Shown here piece after piece: positions 22,751-30,583 of a stretch of DNA of 30,583 nt. The notes beneath the pieces are model-generated. The model was given only the letters and a program-made list of their open reading frames with translations, had not been told where the DNA came from and did no database searches. Source of the stretch: a virus; the IMG/VR virus record IMGVR_UViG_3300035180_004109, positions 1-30,583 of that record; one strand, written 5' to 3'. Every line of letters begins with the position of its first letter. The first letter of the stretch is position 1. Made by a program: the position numbers and the translations under genes.

Positions 22751-23290
22751 TTAGAGAGGTTTCACGTAGAACGATTCTCTCTGGTCGATGTCGAGGCCGA
22801 CGTTGCCAAGTAGTTCATAGATGGCTTTGTTGTCTTTCTCTTTTTTGAGTCCCGCTTTGTCGATGGAGTATGCGATATTGACGAAAGGCCTGAGCGATCT
22901 GTATCCGAGCATGTCCTCTGCGATCTTCGACTCCAGCTTTTTGATCTCGGAGGCTTTGGCATCGAGGGGCAGGTCTATGATGCGGACGGCAGGAGGATTC
23001 AGGCTGTAGCCGATGGTACCTGTGCTGAGTGTGTAGCTGCGCGAGCCGAGGAATAAGCCGGGGTTCTCCTTCGCGAACTGCTCCAGGCGGTCGAGGCATT
23101 CGGTTTTCTTGACCTCGCAGTTTTTAAGGCTGTCGGCGAAGCTCTGCTCGACCAATGCGATACGCTTTTCCTTCCGGGCTTCGAGCTGCCTGATAGTGAT
23201 ATCGGCGTTAGTCCAATCCCTGAGGAGCTTTTCGGCTTCCTTCTGGGTCATGGGTTTTTGTGTGGGTGTGGCTGTTTTAGCTTGTCTCAT
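22751..23290 (-). CDS. gam: Gam-like DNA-end protection protein
   Basis: The 179-residue protein has the Mu Gam/host-nuclease inhibitor features: a coiled N-half (AEKLLRDWTNADITIRQLEA, R-K-E-K-R-I-A-L-V-E-Q) and a C-half with T-G-T-I-G-Y-S-L-N-P-P-A-V and E-S-F-Y-V-K-P. Gam proteins are Ku-like, bind DNA ends and block RecBCD-type exonucleases. Its place downstream of A and B and upstream of GemA is as in Mu. Its ATG overlaps the stop of the previous gene by 4 bases. Confidence 0.85.
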   Translation of the reverse strand: MRQAKTATPTQKPMTQKEAEKLLRDWTNADITIRQLEARKEKRIALVEQSFADSLKNCEVKKTECLDRLEQFAKENPGLFLGSRSYTLSTGTIGYSLNPPAVRIIDLPLDAKASEIKKLESKIAEDMLGYRSLRPFVNIAYSIDKAGLKKEKDNKAIYELLGNVGLDIDQRESFYVKPL

Positions 23291-24934: not shown

Positions 24935-25252
24935 TTAGGGTAAGTCCTCTTCATCGTCTTCGTCGTCTTGGTACTTGTGGCCCTCTCCGTCGAAGTCGTC
25001 GTCGAGGTCGGGGTATTCGAACCGGGTGTCTATGTCGAAGTCCTGATCGTCGTCGAAGTCTTCGTCCGTTCCTTCAAAGGATATTTCGCTAGGATTATAT
25101 CTGGTTTTTAACTCTGCGTCCCATCCGCATTTGCTGCATATTTGATAGTCGATATCAATCTCATCATACTCGCGGCCACAGGATGGGCAGTCTTGGTGTC
25201 CCTCGCTTTCCTCCTCAAAAAGAAAGTCATCTAATTCGGTTTCAGGATTCAT
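24935..25252 (-). CDS. Very acidic zinc-ribbon protein
   Basis: The 105-residue protein has an N-terminal acidic start, a zinc ribbon C-P-S-C and C-S-K-C (residues 22-42, with 13 residues between the pairs), and a long Asp/Glu-rich tail (DEDFDDDQDFD, ending EDDEEDL). I count 42 acidic residues of 105 against 6 Lys/Arg. Such composition suits DNA mimicry (anti-restriction or decoy) or an acidic protein-binding tail. The ATG overlaps the MuB-like gene stop by 4 bases, so the two proteins may work together. Some acidic tails merely keep proteins soluble, so function is open. Confidence 0.65.
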   Translation of the reverse strand: MNPETELDDFLFEEESEGHQDCPSCGREYDEIDIDYQICSKCGWDAELKTRYNPSEISFEGTDEDFDDDQDFDIDTRFEYPDLDDDFDGEGHKYQDDEDDEEDLP

Positions 25253-26166
25253 GCCATTTGATTTTTAGCGCGTTTCTGCAATATGACCAAAGACTCAGCG
25301 CGGCGGAGGCCACCGAGTTCGCCTTTGCCGTCATTGGCGAGGCATTTATTGACGATGGCCTTGAGGTCGGTGCTGCTGTCAGTGTTGGGTTTGAGTACAT
25401 CCATGAGCAGCTTGGTCTGAAATGCCCTGCGGTCGTCCTTATTGATCGGTACGATGGACTGATATTTGCCGGAGAAGCGGCTGAATATCTCTGTGTATCC
25501 CACTTTCTCCGACTTGATACCCATGTTGATCTTGGCGCGGAGGCCATCAGCACCCATCATGTACCATCCGCAGAGGCCATCGGTGGCATTCCAGAGGGCT
25601 TTGATCTCAAGGAATGCAGCTCCCTCCAGATCACCTGCCTCGTCGATAATCACGACAGGCTGATCGAGGGCGCGGAGGTAGCGTACGATCTTATCTTTGG
25701 CATCGGTGAAGGTGCCTTTCTCGCCGAGGCCGAGGGATTTGGAGAGGGCGCGGATGAATGAGGTCTTAGTCTTGCACTGGGAGCCGTCTACATAGAAGCA
25801 GTTCTCCAGGGTAGTGGCGAGATGTTTGGCGGTGAAGGTCTTGCCGATCTCACAGGCATCGACGAACATCATGGCCTTGGCGTGTTCCTTGCAAAACAGC
25901 ACCTGCTCCTCGATGCAGAGATAGACTTCGGTCTTGCATACTTTCCAGTTGCGCTCGCTGATGTCGAAGTTGAGCGCTCCGGCTATGTCGATCCATTTGG
26001 AGTCACTGATGAGCTTTTCGATGCTGCCGCCATTTTTGATCGTGCTGTAGACGGATGGATTGATACCGAACTTAGCGGCGTATCCTGCGTCTTCGCCTCC
26101 GTAGGTATTGCGACTGTCGAGCAGACGGCGAGCGATCTTCTTTTTGATTTCTAAACTGAGTCCCAT
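25249..26166 (-). CDS. MuB-like transposition ATPase
   Basis: The 305-residue protein has an N-terminal HTH (residues 29-50, AAKFGINPSVYSTIKNG), typical of MuB, then an AAA+ ATPase. Walker A reads D-A-C-E-I-G-K-T (103-110), with Asp where Gly/Ala is usual; Walker B is V-V-I-I-D-E-A-G-D (171-179). The C-terminal part holds R-F-S-G-K-Y (sensor area) and helices including GELGGLRRAESLVILQKRA. MuB-type proteins bind target DNA, stimulate the transposase and give target immunity. The start is set by the leader; the acidic zinc-ribbon gene overlaps its end. Confidence 0.85.
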   Translation of the reverse strand: MGLSLEIKKKIARRLLDSRNTYGGEDAGYAAKFGINPSVYSTIKNGGSIEKLISDSKWIDIAGALNFDISERNWKVCKTEVYLCIEEQVLFCKEHAKAMMFVDACEIGKTFTAKHLATTLENCFYVDGSQCKTKTSFIRALSKSLGLGEKGTFTDAKDKIVRYLRALDQPVVIIDEAGDLEGAAFLEIKALWNATDGLCGWYMMGADGLRAKINMGIKSEKVGYTEIFSRFSGKYQSIVPINKDDRRAFQTKLLMDVLKPNTDSSTDLKAIVNKCLANDGKGELGGLRRAESLVILQKRAKNQMA

Positions 26167-26187
26167 TTGTATTTGTTTTATGATGAT

Positions 26188-26406
26188 TTAATTGAATGTT
26201 ACTTCGTGATGCGATCTGTAGTTATCATCGTCGAACTCGACATCGGGATACGATTTGAATCGGTTTTCTTCAATGCCTTTGACATGCGTATTTTCATCTA
26301 CTTGCGTATTTAGAAATCGTAACATATCGCCACTCTCAAAAGCTAGTGCCAATATGTTTGCCTGTATGCTAGTCAGGCCTGTTACTTTTACTGTTGATGA
26401 TCCCAT
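26188..26406 (-). CDS. Hypothetical 72-residue early protein
   Basis: The product starts MGSSTVKVTGLTSIQANILA and ends with an acidic, Asp/Asn-rich part (YPDVEFDDDNYRSHHE). The T-S-I-Q-A-N-I-L-A-L-A-F-E region reads as one amphipathic helix. I recognise no family. The 21 bases to the MuB-like ATG carry an A/T-rich leader. Confidence 0.5.
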   Translation of the reverse strand: MGSSTVKVTGLTSIQANILALAFESGDMLRFLNTQVDENTHVKGIEENRFKSYPDVEFDDDNYRSHHEVTFN

Positions 26407-26410
26407 GATT

Positions 26411-26626
26411 TTATTTTTTTGTTTTTGGTTTATAAGGAAAAGGTACTGCTGCTACTCGCTTGTGATAGGCATCGCCCCGGAGTGAGAAGGCTCGGTCGAG
26501 TGCTGCGTCGTAGGACAGGGGGCCGCTGATGTCTTTGCGGGTTTGCTTTCGGCCTGTGCCCTGTGTGGCTACGACGCAGTACTGTCGGTCGGTGCCTGTG
26601 GTGAATGGTGTGGGGATGAATGTCAT
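26411..26626 (-). CDS. Hypothetical 71-residue early protein
   Basis: The basic product has R-Q-Y-C-V-V-A-T-Q-G-T-G-R-K-Q-T-R-K, then a helix (SYDAALDRAFSL) and a Pro/Lys-rich C-terminus (PFPYKPKTKK). Its ATG overlaps the final stop of the methyltransferase reading frame by 4 bases (ATGA), which indicates that ribosomes were selected to finish that full-length frame. No family recognised. Confidence 0.5.
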   Translation of the reverse strand: MTFIPTPFTTGTDRQYCVVATQGTGRKQTRKDISGPLSYDAALDRAFSLRGDAYHKRVAAVPFPYKPKTKK

Positions 26627-27241
26627 ATTAGTTTGAGTTGTCTGGTATTTAATTCGATTCTTTTTAAAGCGGCTTCGTAGTAGTCTTTATCTAGTTCGCA
26701 GGCTGTGAGGTTAAAGCCCATTTGCGCGCAGGCGATAGCAATAGAGCCGCTTCCCATGTGGGTGTCAAGTATCTTACCCCCCCCCCGCAAACTCGCTTAT
26801 AATCCACTTATATAGCTTTATGGGCTTCTGTGTTGGGTGAATGCGATCATGCTGATTAGGATTGAGTTTGAATATCTTTGCAGACTTATCAAATGAGGTC
26901 CAAGCCATCTCGCATTCTGCAAAATCCCGTCCGTACATTGATTCTCCTTTGTCCCATACAATGAAACATCTGTGTTTAGGAAGTCCGAAATAGTTTCCGC
27001 CCCAAATAATTTGGTTAGATGATACTCGAAGTAATTCATTGAAATATGATTGATCAGGTATACATGAATCCCATTTTTTATTGTCATGCTTTTTCGCCTT
27101 TCCTTTTCTAATACCCATATTCATATTGATATTGATACCATAGGGAGGATCGACAACAGCGAGGTCAAAATAATTGTCTGGATACCGAGCCATCAGGGTC
27201 ATGCAGTCCTCATTAGTAATGTGTAGTAGGTCGGTAGTCAT
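26623..27241 (-). pseudogene. DNA methyltransferase, off at a G10 tract (phase-variable candidate)
   Basis: The frame opens with an ATG overlapping the transposase stop (TAATG) and encodes MTTDLLHITNEDCMTLM, then the class motif D-P-P-Y-G (motif IV, near residue 32). A central part follows (IIWGGNYFGLPKHRCFIVWD), and H-P-T-Q-K-P-I-K-L-Y-K-W. After 155 residues it stops in a run of ten Gs (minus strand, 26777-26786). In the shifted frame the rest is intact: K-I-L-D-T-H-M-G-S-G-S-I-A-I-A-C (motif I, AdoMet site), later LDKDYYEAALKRIEL, ending at a TGA that overlaps the next ATG. With nine Gs the gene would give 205 residues, a beta-class N6-adenine/N4-cytosine methyltransferase. All motifs needed are present, so one base decides on or off. 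Phase variation and assembly error are both possible. Confidence 0.8.
26777..26786. repeat. Homopolymer run of ten C (G on coding strand)
   Basis: Ten consecutive C on the plus strand form the longest homopolymer I saw in the window. The run lies between methyltransferase motifs, at a place where homologues have a short Gly/Lys loop, so a variable number of Gly codons would be tolerated. Tracts of this length slip often in replication. Confidence 0.9.
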
Positions 27242-29310
27242 TAGAATCTATCCTCCAGTTTTGTACTGAAATTTCTTTCAGTGATGATTAAATCGTCATG
27301 ATGTGCGGGGGTCTCGATGACCTCTGCGTCGCTGTGGTTTGGTATGTAGGTCTTGACGCCGGGCATACGGAATGCTCCGCGCTCCGGCAGCTCGCGCTGT
27401 ATGAGGGTGACGGGTTTGATCTTGCGTATGCCTCTCTTTGCGAATGCCTCGACGGTGGCTACGTAGGCGCTCATGAGTGTGCGGTTTTGCTCCTGCTCCG
27501 GTGTGCGCTCGGAGATGGCTCGGCTGTATCCGAGATCGCCGAGCAGCTCGCAGATCATGCGGCCCGACTGGTCGTAGACGTGGGCCTGTATGACCTCGCC
27601 CTGATTGTCATCCATCCAGTAGATGGTGACGGCCTCGCCCTCGATGTCGCTCATGATGCGGATGAGGTCATCGCCCAGGGCTACCTGACCACCGTGTCCG
27701 ACGACGCGCTGTTTGCCCTGTAGGGTGATGCGTCCTGCTTTCATCGACGATGGTGTCACGAATCCGAGGTGCGGCAGGATGCCAGTCCAGTTGATCGGCT
27801 GGGCGTTTGGGTTTTGCTTCTCCCTGAGTACCTGCCAGCGGGTCATGCCGGGGTGTGTAGTCTGATCAGAGTGCAGGGTATTATTCCACTGCTCTATGAT
27901 GGCGAGGGAGTTTTGTATGATCTCCTCCTTTGGCAGGAGCGGTACCCGGTGCGCTCCCTTCTGATTGGATTCGCTTTTCGCGAAGGGACGAGCGATCCAT
28001 CCGTCGATCTCTTTCTCCGCACCATACCTGATGTTTTTGAAATACCGCTCTATACGCTTGCCACGGGCGTTATTAGCCTCGATGCGGGTATGCTGGAACA
28101 TGACGCCGTCCTGCAGGAAGGTATTGACGTAGGAGCTATTCAGAGAGCTCTCCGCCTCCAGCTCCAGAGGGAGGGGCAGGTTCCACTCGTGATAGTTGCG
28201 CAGCATCTGACGATAGAAGTCCTCGATGATGCCCTCCTTGGTCTCGCCATATACTCCGGTGGTGAAACACTCGCTGCCGAGATCAATGCCGAGGTAGAAC
28301 CACATACGCTTTCCCGGTGCATACTCGAAGGGCGGCTGACGGTCATCTATAGAGATGATGCTGCCTGCATACCGCGGCTGAATGAGTTTGTGGTATGGCT
28401 TGTAGAGGTTCATGTGTACCTGACGGTCACCGGAGCGGACGGCGGCGGTGCTGACGCGGCTCGACCATGTGGACTGATGCTCCAGTACGGTGCGGTCGGT
28501 GACATCTCGGTAGTCCTCATGCAGGTGATTGTAGACTTCGCCTGTGCTGTTGTTGATGATGTCGAGTTTGCCCGCGCGGAAGGCCATGTATTTGACATAG
28601 ACCTCGGTGTAGTTCGGCTTACGTCCGTGCTGACCTGCGTAGATACTCGTCCAGAGTTCGAGCATGAGGGGCGTGACCTTCTGGGCGTTCGCATTGGCAT
28701 TGCGTTTGTCGACGAGGTACTCGTATCCCTGCGCCCGATAGTCGCGGAGCTTGGCACGGAGGCGGAGTTCATTGGCGGGGAGGGAGTGCTGCACGTTGTA
28801 TTTGGTCTTTAGGTAGCCGTTGAAGTGAGCGACATCCGATGCGAGTGAGGCCCAGATACCGTGTGTGCTGCCGCCTTTGCCTCTGCGGGATGCGCGGCGG
28901 TTCTGCTCCAGTGTGGCGAGGGCGTTGAGAACGGAGGCGTTGACAGTGTAGCGGTCGATCTGCTCCTTCTTGAGATACAGGCCGTCCTCCCTGCGGTATG
29001 CCTGATAGTACTGACGTGCCTCCGCGCTGATCTGAAAGTATGACTGGAGGGGATTGTGTATCTCGTTAGGATTGCCCCACCGCGCAATGACCTGTGAGTA
29101 GTAAGGCTCCGGAATGGCGTCGAGTGCGAAGAGGGCTGTGCGTCCGTTGCCGCCTTTTTGGAGCTGCGCTTCTTTGCGGTCGCGGCACCATTTCTTATAG
29201 AGAGCAAGCGTGATGATGCCGTCCGGGTTCAGCTCCGCATCGTGGATGATGACGCTGCCTTTGACGCAGGTCTTGTCCTTGTATTCCTGATATGGGGATT
29301 GGTGGCTCAT
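27241..29310 (-). CDS. MuA-like DDE transposase
   Basis: This 689-residue transposase performs integration and replicative transposition. The N-terminal third carries DNA-binding helices (LALYKKWCRDRKEAQLQKG). The catalytic RNase-H domain begins near residue 315: S-I-D-D-R-Q-P-P-F gives Asp322/323, W-F-Y-L-G-I-D-L the next strand, L-P-L-E-L-E-A-E-S-S-L-N the second acidic position (about 385, Glu instead of the Asp of Mu), and A-R-G-K-R-I-E-R-Y-F the third (Glu421). The mu-type beta barrel (RITLQGKQRVVGHGGQVALG) and a charged C-terminal tail follow. Size and layout match MuA (663). It lies second to third from the repressor end, as in Mu, and its stop overlaps the methyltransferase ATG. Confidence 0.9.
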   Translation of the reverse strand: MSHQSPYQEYKDKTCVKGSVIIHDAELNPDGIITLALYKKWCRDRKEAQLQKGGNGRTALFALDAIPEPYYSQVIARWGNPNEIHNPLQSYFQISAEARQYYQAYRREDGLYLKKEQIDRYTVNASVLNALATLEQNRRASRRGKGGSTHGIWASLASDVAHFNGYLKTKYNVQHSLPANELRLRAKLRDYRAQGYEYLVDKRNANANAQKVTPLMLELWTSIYAGQHGRKPNYTEVYVKYMAFRAGKLDIINNSTGEVYNHLHEDYRDVTDRTVLEHQSTWSSRVSTAAVRSGDRQVHMNLYKPYHKLIQPRYAGSIISIDDRQPPFEYAPGKRMWFYLGIDLGSECFTTGVYGETKEGIIEDFYRQMLRNYHEWNLPLPLELEAESSLNSSYVNTFLQDGVMFQHTRIEANNARGKRIERYFKNIRYGAEKEIDGWIARPFAKSESNQKGAHRVPLLPKEEIIQNSLAIIEQWNNTLHSDQTTHPGMTRWQVLREKQNPNAQPINWTGILPHLGFVTPSSMKAGRITLQGKQRVVGHGGQVALGDDLIRIMSDIEGEAVTIYWMDDNQGEVIQAHVYDQSGRMICELLGDLGYSRAISERTPEQEQNRTLMSAYVATVEAFAKRGIRKIKPVTLIQRELPERGAFRMPGVKTYIPNHSDAEVIETPAHHDDLIITERNFSTKLEDRF

Positions 29311-29771: not shown

Positions 29772-29893
29772 GTTTTTTATTTCTATTTGTATCCGAATCG
29801 TGAAACAAAAATAGAAAGTACTTTCAATATTGAAAGCGAATAATGAAAGTAAATGAAAGTATTTTGTCCACATAGTTTTCAACATTGAAAGTA
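29772..29893. promoter_or_regulatory. Early/repressor control region with operators
   Basis: This 122-base region separates the divergent early operon and repressor gene. GAAAG units are crowded in it: GAAAGTACTTTC (29814-29825), CTTTCAATATTGAAAG (29821-29836, perfect 16-bp palindrome), TGAAAGT (29844-29850 and 29854-29860) and TTTTCAACATTGAAAG (29876-29891, two mismatches to the palindrome). A minus-strand -7 element, TATTTTTG (29806-29813), abuts the first palindrome, so a bound repressor would block the early promoter. The last operator touches the repressor ATG, suggesting autoregulation. Confidence 0.75.
29806..29836 (-). promoter_or_regulatory. Early promoter overlapping operator
   Basis: On the minus strand, TATTTTTG (29813-29806) fits the Bacteroidota -7 consensus TAnnTTTG. 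The -33 element would be TTTC (29836-29833), one base off TTTG, with about 19 bases between. The start of transcription falls near 29799, about 28 bases before the first early ATG. The -33 and spacer lie inside the operator palindromes. Confidence 0.55.
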
Positions 29894-30583
29894 ATGACAG
29901 GCGAGGAGTTAAGAAATGAATTGAAAGGAATGGGAATCGGTATGGGAAAAATAGCGTCCCTGCTTGATCTCACGCCACAGGGCTTAAATTTCCATCTACG
30001 GAAAGATAAAGTGGACACTGCGCTACTTTCAAAAGTGAAAGCACTGAAAGAAAGTTATAACGCAGGTCTGCTCAATGAGCTGGAGGTATCATATAACACA
30101 AGTGAGAAGTCAAACGCGAAGCCCGTGGCGATAGCTGACACTCAGATGATGCTCGTGCCCCTCGTCAATAAGTATGCATACGGCGGATACCTGCGCGGAT
30201 ATGGTGATCCTGAGTATGTAGAGAAGCTACCGACGCTGCCTTTCCCGATCAATAAGGAGTACCGTGGGCAGTATCTGCTGTTTGAAGTGAGCGGAGATAG
30301 CATGGATAACGATACGAAGCGCTCCTGTGCCTCCGGTGACATCGTACTGGGCCGTCAAATAGGCAAGCAGTACTGGAAAGACAAGCTCCATATCAACAAA
30401 TGGAAGACATTTGTGATCGTGCACAAGGAGGACGGGATACTAATCAAGGATATTATCAAGCATGATGTCGCAAAAGGGATCATTACACTGCACTCCCTGA
30501 ACCCGCTATATGAGGATTTCGATGTAAACCTCAAAGATGTAGCCCAGATATACAATGTCATTAAGGTTTTGAGCGATCTCTGA
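29894..30583 (+). CDS. Phage repressor, HTH plus S24/LexA-like domain
   Basis: The ATG at 29894 (MTGEELRNELKGMGIGMGKI) is chosen; an upstream TTG would overlap the operator. The product has 229 residues. Residues 13-36 form the DNA-binding HTH (GKIASLLDLTPQGLNFHLR). The C-terminal part, from about 125, is S24-like: Y-L-L-F-E-V-S-G-D-S-M gives Ser136 and G-I-L-I-K-D-I gives Lys185, the catalytic dyad positions. The only Ala-Gly pair (57-58) is 79 residues from the serine, too far for LexA-type self-cleavage, so SOS induction is doubtful. It keeps the prophage silent by binding the palindromic sites upstream and one inside its own gene (30026-30041). It is read away from the early operon, as in Mu. 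Confidence 0.85.
   Translation: MTGEELRNELKGMGIGMGKIASLLDLTPQGLNFHLRKDKVDTALLSKVKALKESYNAGLLNELEVSYNTSEKSNAKPVAIADTQMMLVPLVNKYAYGGYLRGYGDPEYVEKLPTLPFPINKEYRGQYLLFEVSGDSMDNDTKRSCASGDIVLGRQIGKQYWKDKLHINKWKTFVIVHKEDGILIKDIIKHDVAKGIITLHSLNPLYEDFDVNLKDVAQIYNVIKVLSDL
30026..30041. promoter_or_regulatory. Operator copy inside repressor gene
   Basis: CTTTCAAAAGTGAAAG differs from the palindrome at 29821-29836 at two central positions and keeps both CTTTC and GAAAG arms. Two further GAAAG units follow at 30046-30054. It lies about 130 bases inside the repressor coding sequence, where a bound repressor would act as a roadblock or loop with the upstream sites. Confidence 0.5.

Follow-up and report, generated by a model that had tools for sequence, protein, structure and literature searches.

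A G10 tract ahead of AdoMet motif I as a proposed ON/OFF switch of an orphan methyltransferase in a Mu-like phage

The methyltransferase gene between transposition genes A and B

The window analysed here is a whole virus record of 30,583 nt (30.6 kb), which encodes MuA-, MuB- and Gam-like proteins in this order, the arrangement of a Mu-like transposable phage. The transposition genes enclose a DNA methyltransferase (MTase) gene, and the features relevant to it are the following:

29885 to 30583, plus strand: repressor-like protein with an S24 peptidase domain (PF00717, E=8.6e-5, just under Pfam's cut-off)
27241 to 29310, minus strand: MuA-like transposase (A; PHROG 310 transposase, E=3e-37; relatives adjoin B in 80 loci)
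27239 to 27243, minus strand: TAATG overlap of the transposase A stop and the MTase start, a probable translational coupling (sequence, ORF list)
26623 to 27241, minus strand: beta-class DNA MTase gene of the N6-adenine/N4-cytosine type, whole coding stretch, frameshifted at the G10 tract (PF01555, PHROG and PDB matches)
26774 to 27241, minus strand: MTase N-terminal frame, 155 aa, with motif IV DPPYG, target-recognition region, HPTQKP, and a TAA directly 3' of the tract (ORF list, PHROG)
26777 to 26786, minus strand: G10 homopolymer, the proposed slippage switch, coding for A-G-G-G in place of the family's A-K-[EQP]-G-D (sequence, relatives)
26623 to 26775, minus strand: MTase C-terminal frame, 50 aa, from AdoMet motif I (DTHMGSGS) onward, intact and without decay (translation, column conservation)
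26623 to 26626, minus strand: ATGA overlap of the MTase stop and the start of orf71 (sequence, ORF list)
26411 to 26626, minus strand: orf71, 71 aa, part of the A-B cargo (ORF list)
26188 to 26406, minus strand: orf72, 72 aa, part of the A-B cargo (ORF list)
25249 to 26166, minus strand: MuB-like transposition ATPase (B; AAA_22, PHROG 296 DNA transposition protein, 411 relatives)
22751 to 23290, minus strand: Mu Gam-like end-protection protein (PF07352, PHROG 491)

The initial annotation had described an MTase frame with D-P-P-Y-G that ends in a run of ten Gs, and an intact remainder with DTHMGSGS that continues in another frame up to an ATGA overlap with the next gene; both descriptions hold. 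The plus strand shows exactly ten C at 26777-26786, i.e., ten G on the coding strand, and the 155-aa frame (27241-26774), which includes VVDPPYG, is closed by a TAA whose T is the base right after the last G. The C-terminal part, in frame 26775-26623, reads KILDTHMGSGSIAIACAQMGFNLTACELDKDYYEAALKRIELNTRQLKLI (50 aa), contains no other stop and terminates at the TGA inside ATGA. As had been proposed, one G fewer joins the halves into an enzyme of 205 residues (A-G-G-G-K); two extra Gs, a solution absent from the initial annotation, restore the frame too, and this G12 version has 206 residues (A-G-G-G-G-K) and the usual family spacing. The overlap of the MTase start with the stop of A is a further addition, and with TAATG on one side and ATGA on the other the gene looks coupled to both of its neighbours.

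The read-through product matches PF01555 (N6_N4_Mtase, E=1.9e-13) and, by sequence, the beta-class enzymes RsrI, MboIIA, CcrM and DpnA-like proteins of the PDB, while its N-terminal part matches PHROG 67 and 23224; the best relative, from Parasporobacterium paucivorans, shares 71% over the N-terminal part. Beta-class MTases carry motif IV (DPPY), the target recognition region, motif X and motif I in this order, and DPPYG, HPTQKP and DTHMGSGS succeed one another accordingly in the phage gene. Since motif I comes last, the 155-aa product is devoid of the AdoMet-binding motif.

The placement of the MTase between A and B was likewise borne out, with two small ORFs sharing the interval. In the 80 relatives the A-B gap has an estimated median of 25 nt and a maximum of 439, against 1074 nt in the window, where the interval (within 25249-29310) holds 1.07 kb made up of the MTase, orf71 and orf72. 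None of the 80 B-relative loci, at 40-52%, has an MTase of the window's family and, A and B being nearly adjacent in them, we regard the three genes as added cargo. Searches of Pfam, PHROG and PADLOC gave no family match for orf71, PADLOC gave none for orf72, and neither ORF had a match in the 80 loci. No endonuclease was recognised among the neighbours A, orf71, orf72 and B, and PADLOC matched the MTase only; the enzyme is therefore treated as an orphan. A pattern search with transposase A found no close phage relative, and a nucleotide search in phages returned short partial matches only. The nearest named phages are the Mu-like prophages of Porphyromonas gingivalis (BK068096 and relatives; terminase 43%), which points to a probable Bacteroidales-type host.

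Conservation of the gene and recurrence of the tract

The tract is the only G/C run of at least seven bases in the 30.6 kb of the window, and in 17 of its genes GGG accounts for 26 of 462 glycine codons (5.6%). Of 100 dinucleotide shuffles, only 1 contained at least three G8 matches. After the tract, all 14 family-conserved columns (conserved at ≥90%) are kept, and the N-terminal part keeps 39 of 41, with two conservative changes; the divergence after the tract relative to the N-terminal part has residual rank 26 of 78, without excess. In conservation the C-terminal part matches intact homologs, so both halves either worked until a very recent time or still work when the tract has another length. 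The gene has no second inactivating change, so that the length of an in-gene homopolymer, a simple sequence repeat, by itself sets the MTase frame.

Such a run is foreign to most of the family, as 82 distinct homologs typically read Y-A-K-[EQP]-G-D-K-I-L-D-T-H at the tract site, in a single frame and without a long G run. Comparing 155 distinct linkers, defined as the segment from HPxQKP to motif I, we found G runs of at most five in 146 and of seven to ten in nine. The frame was broken in two of the nine linkers with a run of at least seven (the window and L171, at G9) vs. none of the 146 others. The share of the nine among the linkers is no frequency estimate, some of them having been fetched for their tracts. 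In the tract carriers, glycines replace the family's K-[EQP]-G-D just before motif I, indicating that the tract grew over conserved residues and does not reflect codon choice alone. The spacing of the window's G9 version has a precedent in L259/L260, which are in frame with the same 24-codon linker. The window and L171, both broken genes of the family with the DTH motif, need a shift in the same direction. No G8 or longer run shortly before a DTHxG motif was found in 395 Bacteroidia genomes. Two paralogous tract MTases, with G9 and G8, lie 3.8 kb apart in L169 (positions 2211 and 6009; also in L172 and L175), both in frame. The G8 runs of L082 and L031 were rejected as tracts, since they reflect codon choice, in frame, within the conserved IWGGNYF motif. 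In L317, at 1748, an MTase homolog is apparently frame-broken at a G8 in the conserved WGGNYF motif, a second tract-prone glycine-rich site.

We scanned 2.9 million viral contigs for two patterns: G8 or longer shortly before DTHxGSG occurred in eight contigs of the window's family, and G9 or longer before LDP[FY]xGSG in 37 that carry other beta-class MTases (tracts G9-G13). When the window, L260 and L278 are added, the matches fall into 30 clusters at 60% identity, on contigs of 25-70% GC, a number that is not in itself a measured enrichment, as the scans sought long tracts; nor were the 37 LDP[FY]-type matches used as one, there being no total of motif sites to set them against. Across these roughly 30 clusters of phage MTases, tracts at the site before motif I range from G7 to G13, and the same-site carriers comprise 28 ON (in frame) and 22 OFF copies according to heuristic frame calls made by script. 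Among loci collected by means other than a tract pattern, G8 or longer preceded motif I four times vs. 0.05 expected in a position-only control, where the glycine-rich loop explains some of the excess and some loci had been fetched as relatives of tract carriers.

Over 1012 aligned bases, the sole difference between L356 (G11, OFF) and L357 (G13, ON) is GG. Five other near-identical groups (L169/L172/L175, L174/L176, the L349 group, L354/L378 and L366/L380; tracts G8-G9) have equal tract lengths, and variation is thus not universal.

LoVEphage, a Bacteroides phage, has an MTase of the window's family that is broken at a C9 tract (L338/L339; OY731444, OY725593; 1727-1735) and annotated as two genes; in its near relative BI-TP1 (L340, PQ571265) the MTase is intact and without the tract. 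Near its start, a PAPS-reductase-like gene of LoVEphage-type phages carries a tract that is G10 in four of the records and G8 in the two others (L338 533-542, L340 535-542; L381, L382, L383), and tract length changes which N-terminus is in frame; judging from these tracts, it is a candidate for a second phase-variable phage gene. The MTases of LoVEphage and BI-TP1 and the PAPS-reductase-like tracts indicate that poly-G/C length differs between closely related Bacteroides phages, beside a DNA-modification gene.

The proposed switch and its alternatives

In our reading, to which we give a probability of roughly three in four, slipped-strand events lengthen or shorten the G tract before motif I and thereby turn the orphan MTase of this phage ON and OFF; the record caught the gene in the OFF state. 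Slippage during replication would change the number of Gs just before AdoMet motif I. With the G10 of the record, translation would end after the tract and leave a 155-residue stub, predicted to be inactive (OFF) since it keeps DPPY and misses motif I, while G9 or G12 would yield the full MTase (ON). Slippage-controlled switching had been put forward in the initial annotation, and the comparative part of that claim found good support in the same-site tracts, the ON and OFF frames and the L356/L357 pair; for this phage itself, a tract of varying length is what we infer from the relatives.

An error in the record ranks first among the alternatives and is unlikely, though to be taken seriously: sequencing or assembly would have miscounted a true tract of nine (or twelve) Gs, and the MTase would be constitutively intact. 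We are dealing with a single record, runs of ten Gs are error-prone, metagenome assemblies can miscount them, and the conserved downstream frame is what an intact gene would have. Nevertheless, nine Gs would still be an exceptional run, atypical of the family, a break of this kind also occurs in the unrelated record L171, and nearly half of the same-site carriers are broken, even if some of these could be errors too.

Less probable again is a simple pseudogene, in which a single frameshift at a G-rich site inactivated the MTase permanently. The frame is indeed broken, and phage cargo genes are often lost. Yet the C-terminal part shows no other stop, frameshift or loss of a conserved residue, the N-terminal part retains nearly all of its conserved columns (39/41), and the frame stays restorable although the tract displaced conserved linker residues; a one-off event also fits poorly with the recurrence in about 30 clusters and with the L356/L357 pair.

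We hold it very improbable that the G10 gene yields some full-length MTase because ribosomes make a programmed +1 frameshift, or RNA polymerase slips, on the G run. A G run before TAA is a possible slippery site, and the shift direction common to the window and L171 would suit this mechanism, but other carriers have their tract in frame, where shifting would only be harmful, and no stimulatory RNA fold for a programmed frameshift was found (z=0.15). Some transcriptional slippage could still leak MTase product in the OFF phase. That the tract serves mainly to tune the downstream orf71 and ATPase B, through polarity or translational coupling and with the MTase only incidental, can practically be dismissed: the TAATG and ATGA couplings and the position of the cargo inside the A-B operon would allow it, but B follows A without any such element in the 80 relatives, and since MTases of diverse phages carry a tract at this very site, the enzyme is the factor they share.

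Under slipped-strand switching of the MTase, phage DNA produced in the ON state would be protected from host restriction and/or the methylome of the lysogen would be changed, whereas the OFF state may avoid a cost or modification-dependent restriction. A possible side effect of the OFF phase is that ribosomes would stop about 150 nt upstream of ATGA and the coupled start of orf71, perhaps with operon expression towards B, would drop. It is plausible, by analogy, that MTase switching alters restriction sensitivity or the host methylome, as the initial annotation suggested; the benefit of a mixed population is drawn from known orphan phage MTases. On a broader proposal our judgement is evenly balanced, namely that the loop before motif I may be a recurrent evolved switch site, where phages of widely different hosts would repeatedly have grown G tracts, in the window's family at the cost of conserved residues, so as to render methylation bistable within phage populations.

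Phase variation is generally presented as a bacterial trait. Should phages carry such a switch themselves, one lysogen or one burst could release modified as well as unmodified particles and so hedge its bets between hosts that have the matching restriction and hosts that do not, or against restriction that depends on modification; lysogens would also switch their own methylome. In phage catalogues, genes of this kind would then turn up as two fragments or as pseudogenes, which is the case for the annotated same-family MTase of LoVEphage.

Comparison with known modification systems

Among Mu-like phages, Mom of Mu and the hin1523/hia5 adenine MTases of Mu-like prophages are DNA-modification genes thought to protect phage DNA. 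The MTase of the window is likewise a DNA-modification gene of a Mu-like phage, but those genes belong to other families and do not lie between A and B, and we know of no G tract in any of them. The P. gingivalis Mu-like prophages share the repressor-A-B-ATPase-Gam order of the window; unlike in the window, their A and B overlap, without an MTase in between.

The closest precedent for a repeat in the coding sequence of a prophage-borne orphan MTase is the M.Btr192IV group of Bibersteinia trehalosi prophages, hia5-like enzymes with 12 CAAG repeats (PMC4996451, which also covers hia5). It differs from the window in that the repeat is a tetranucleotide near the start codon, and the enzyme resembles the promiscuous hia5 and is unexpressed in its native host (PMC4996451).

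Orphan MTases occur in prophages of the Bacteroides fragilis group (PMC10333322), and phage populations can carry MTase islands that are hypervariable (PMC7468147). As in the window, phage MTases are there gained, lost and exchanged as anti-restriction diversity; in those cases they vary by exchange of genes, in the window, as proposed, by tract length within one gene.

That repeats, poly-G among them, make bacterial MTases phase-variable is well established (PMC12003011; PMC13076061). In the Hpy300X-type Type III MTase of H. pylori a coding poly-G tract sets full-length vs. truncated product (PMC12003011), and for the Type IIG enzyme cj0031 of C. jejuni ON/OFF variants are cited (PMC13076061). 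Reversible ON/OFF states of an MTase are what we propose for the window as well, but the bacterial G-tract MTases are chromosomal and mostly Type III or Type IIG, while the window has a small orphan beta-class enzyme in a Mu-like phage, with the tract before motif I. Our literature search, which covered few subscription journals, turned up no report of G tracts, ahead of motif I in particular, switching phage MTases. MTase phase variation in bacteria and tetranucleotide-repeat prophage MTases are the known part of this picture, and what appears to be new is the proposed recurrent G-tract switch ahead of motif I in phages.
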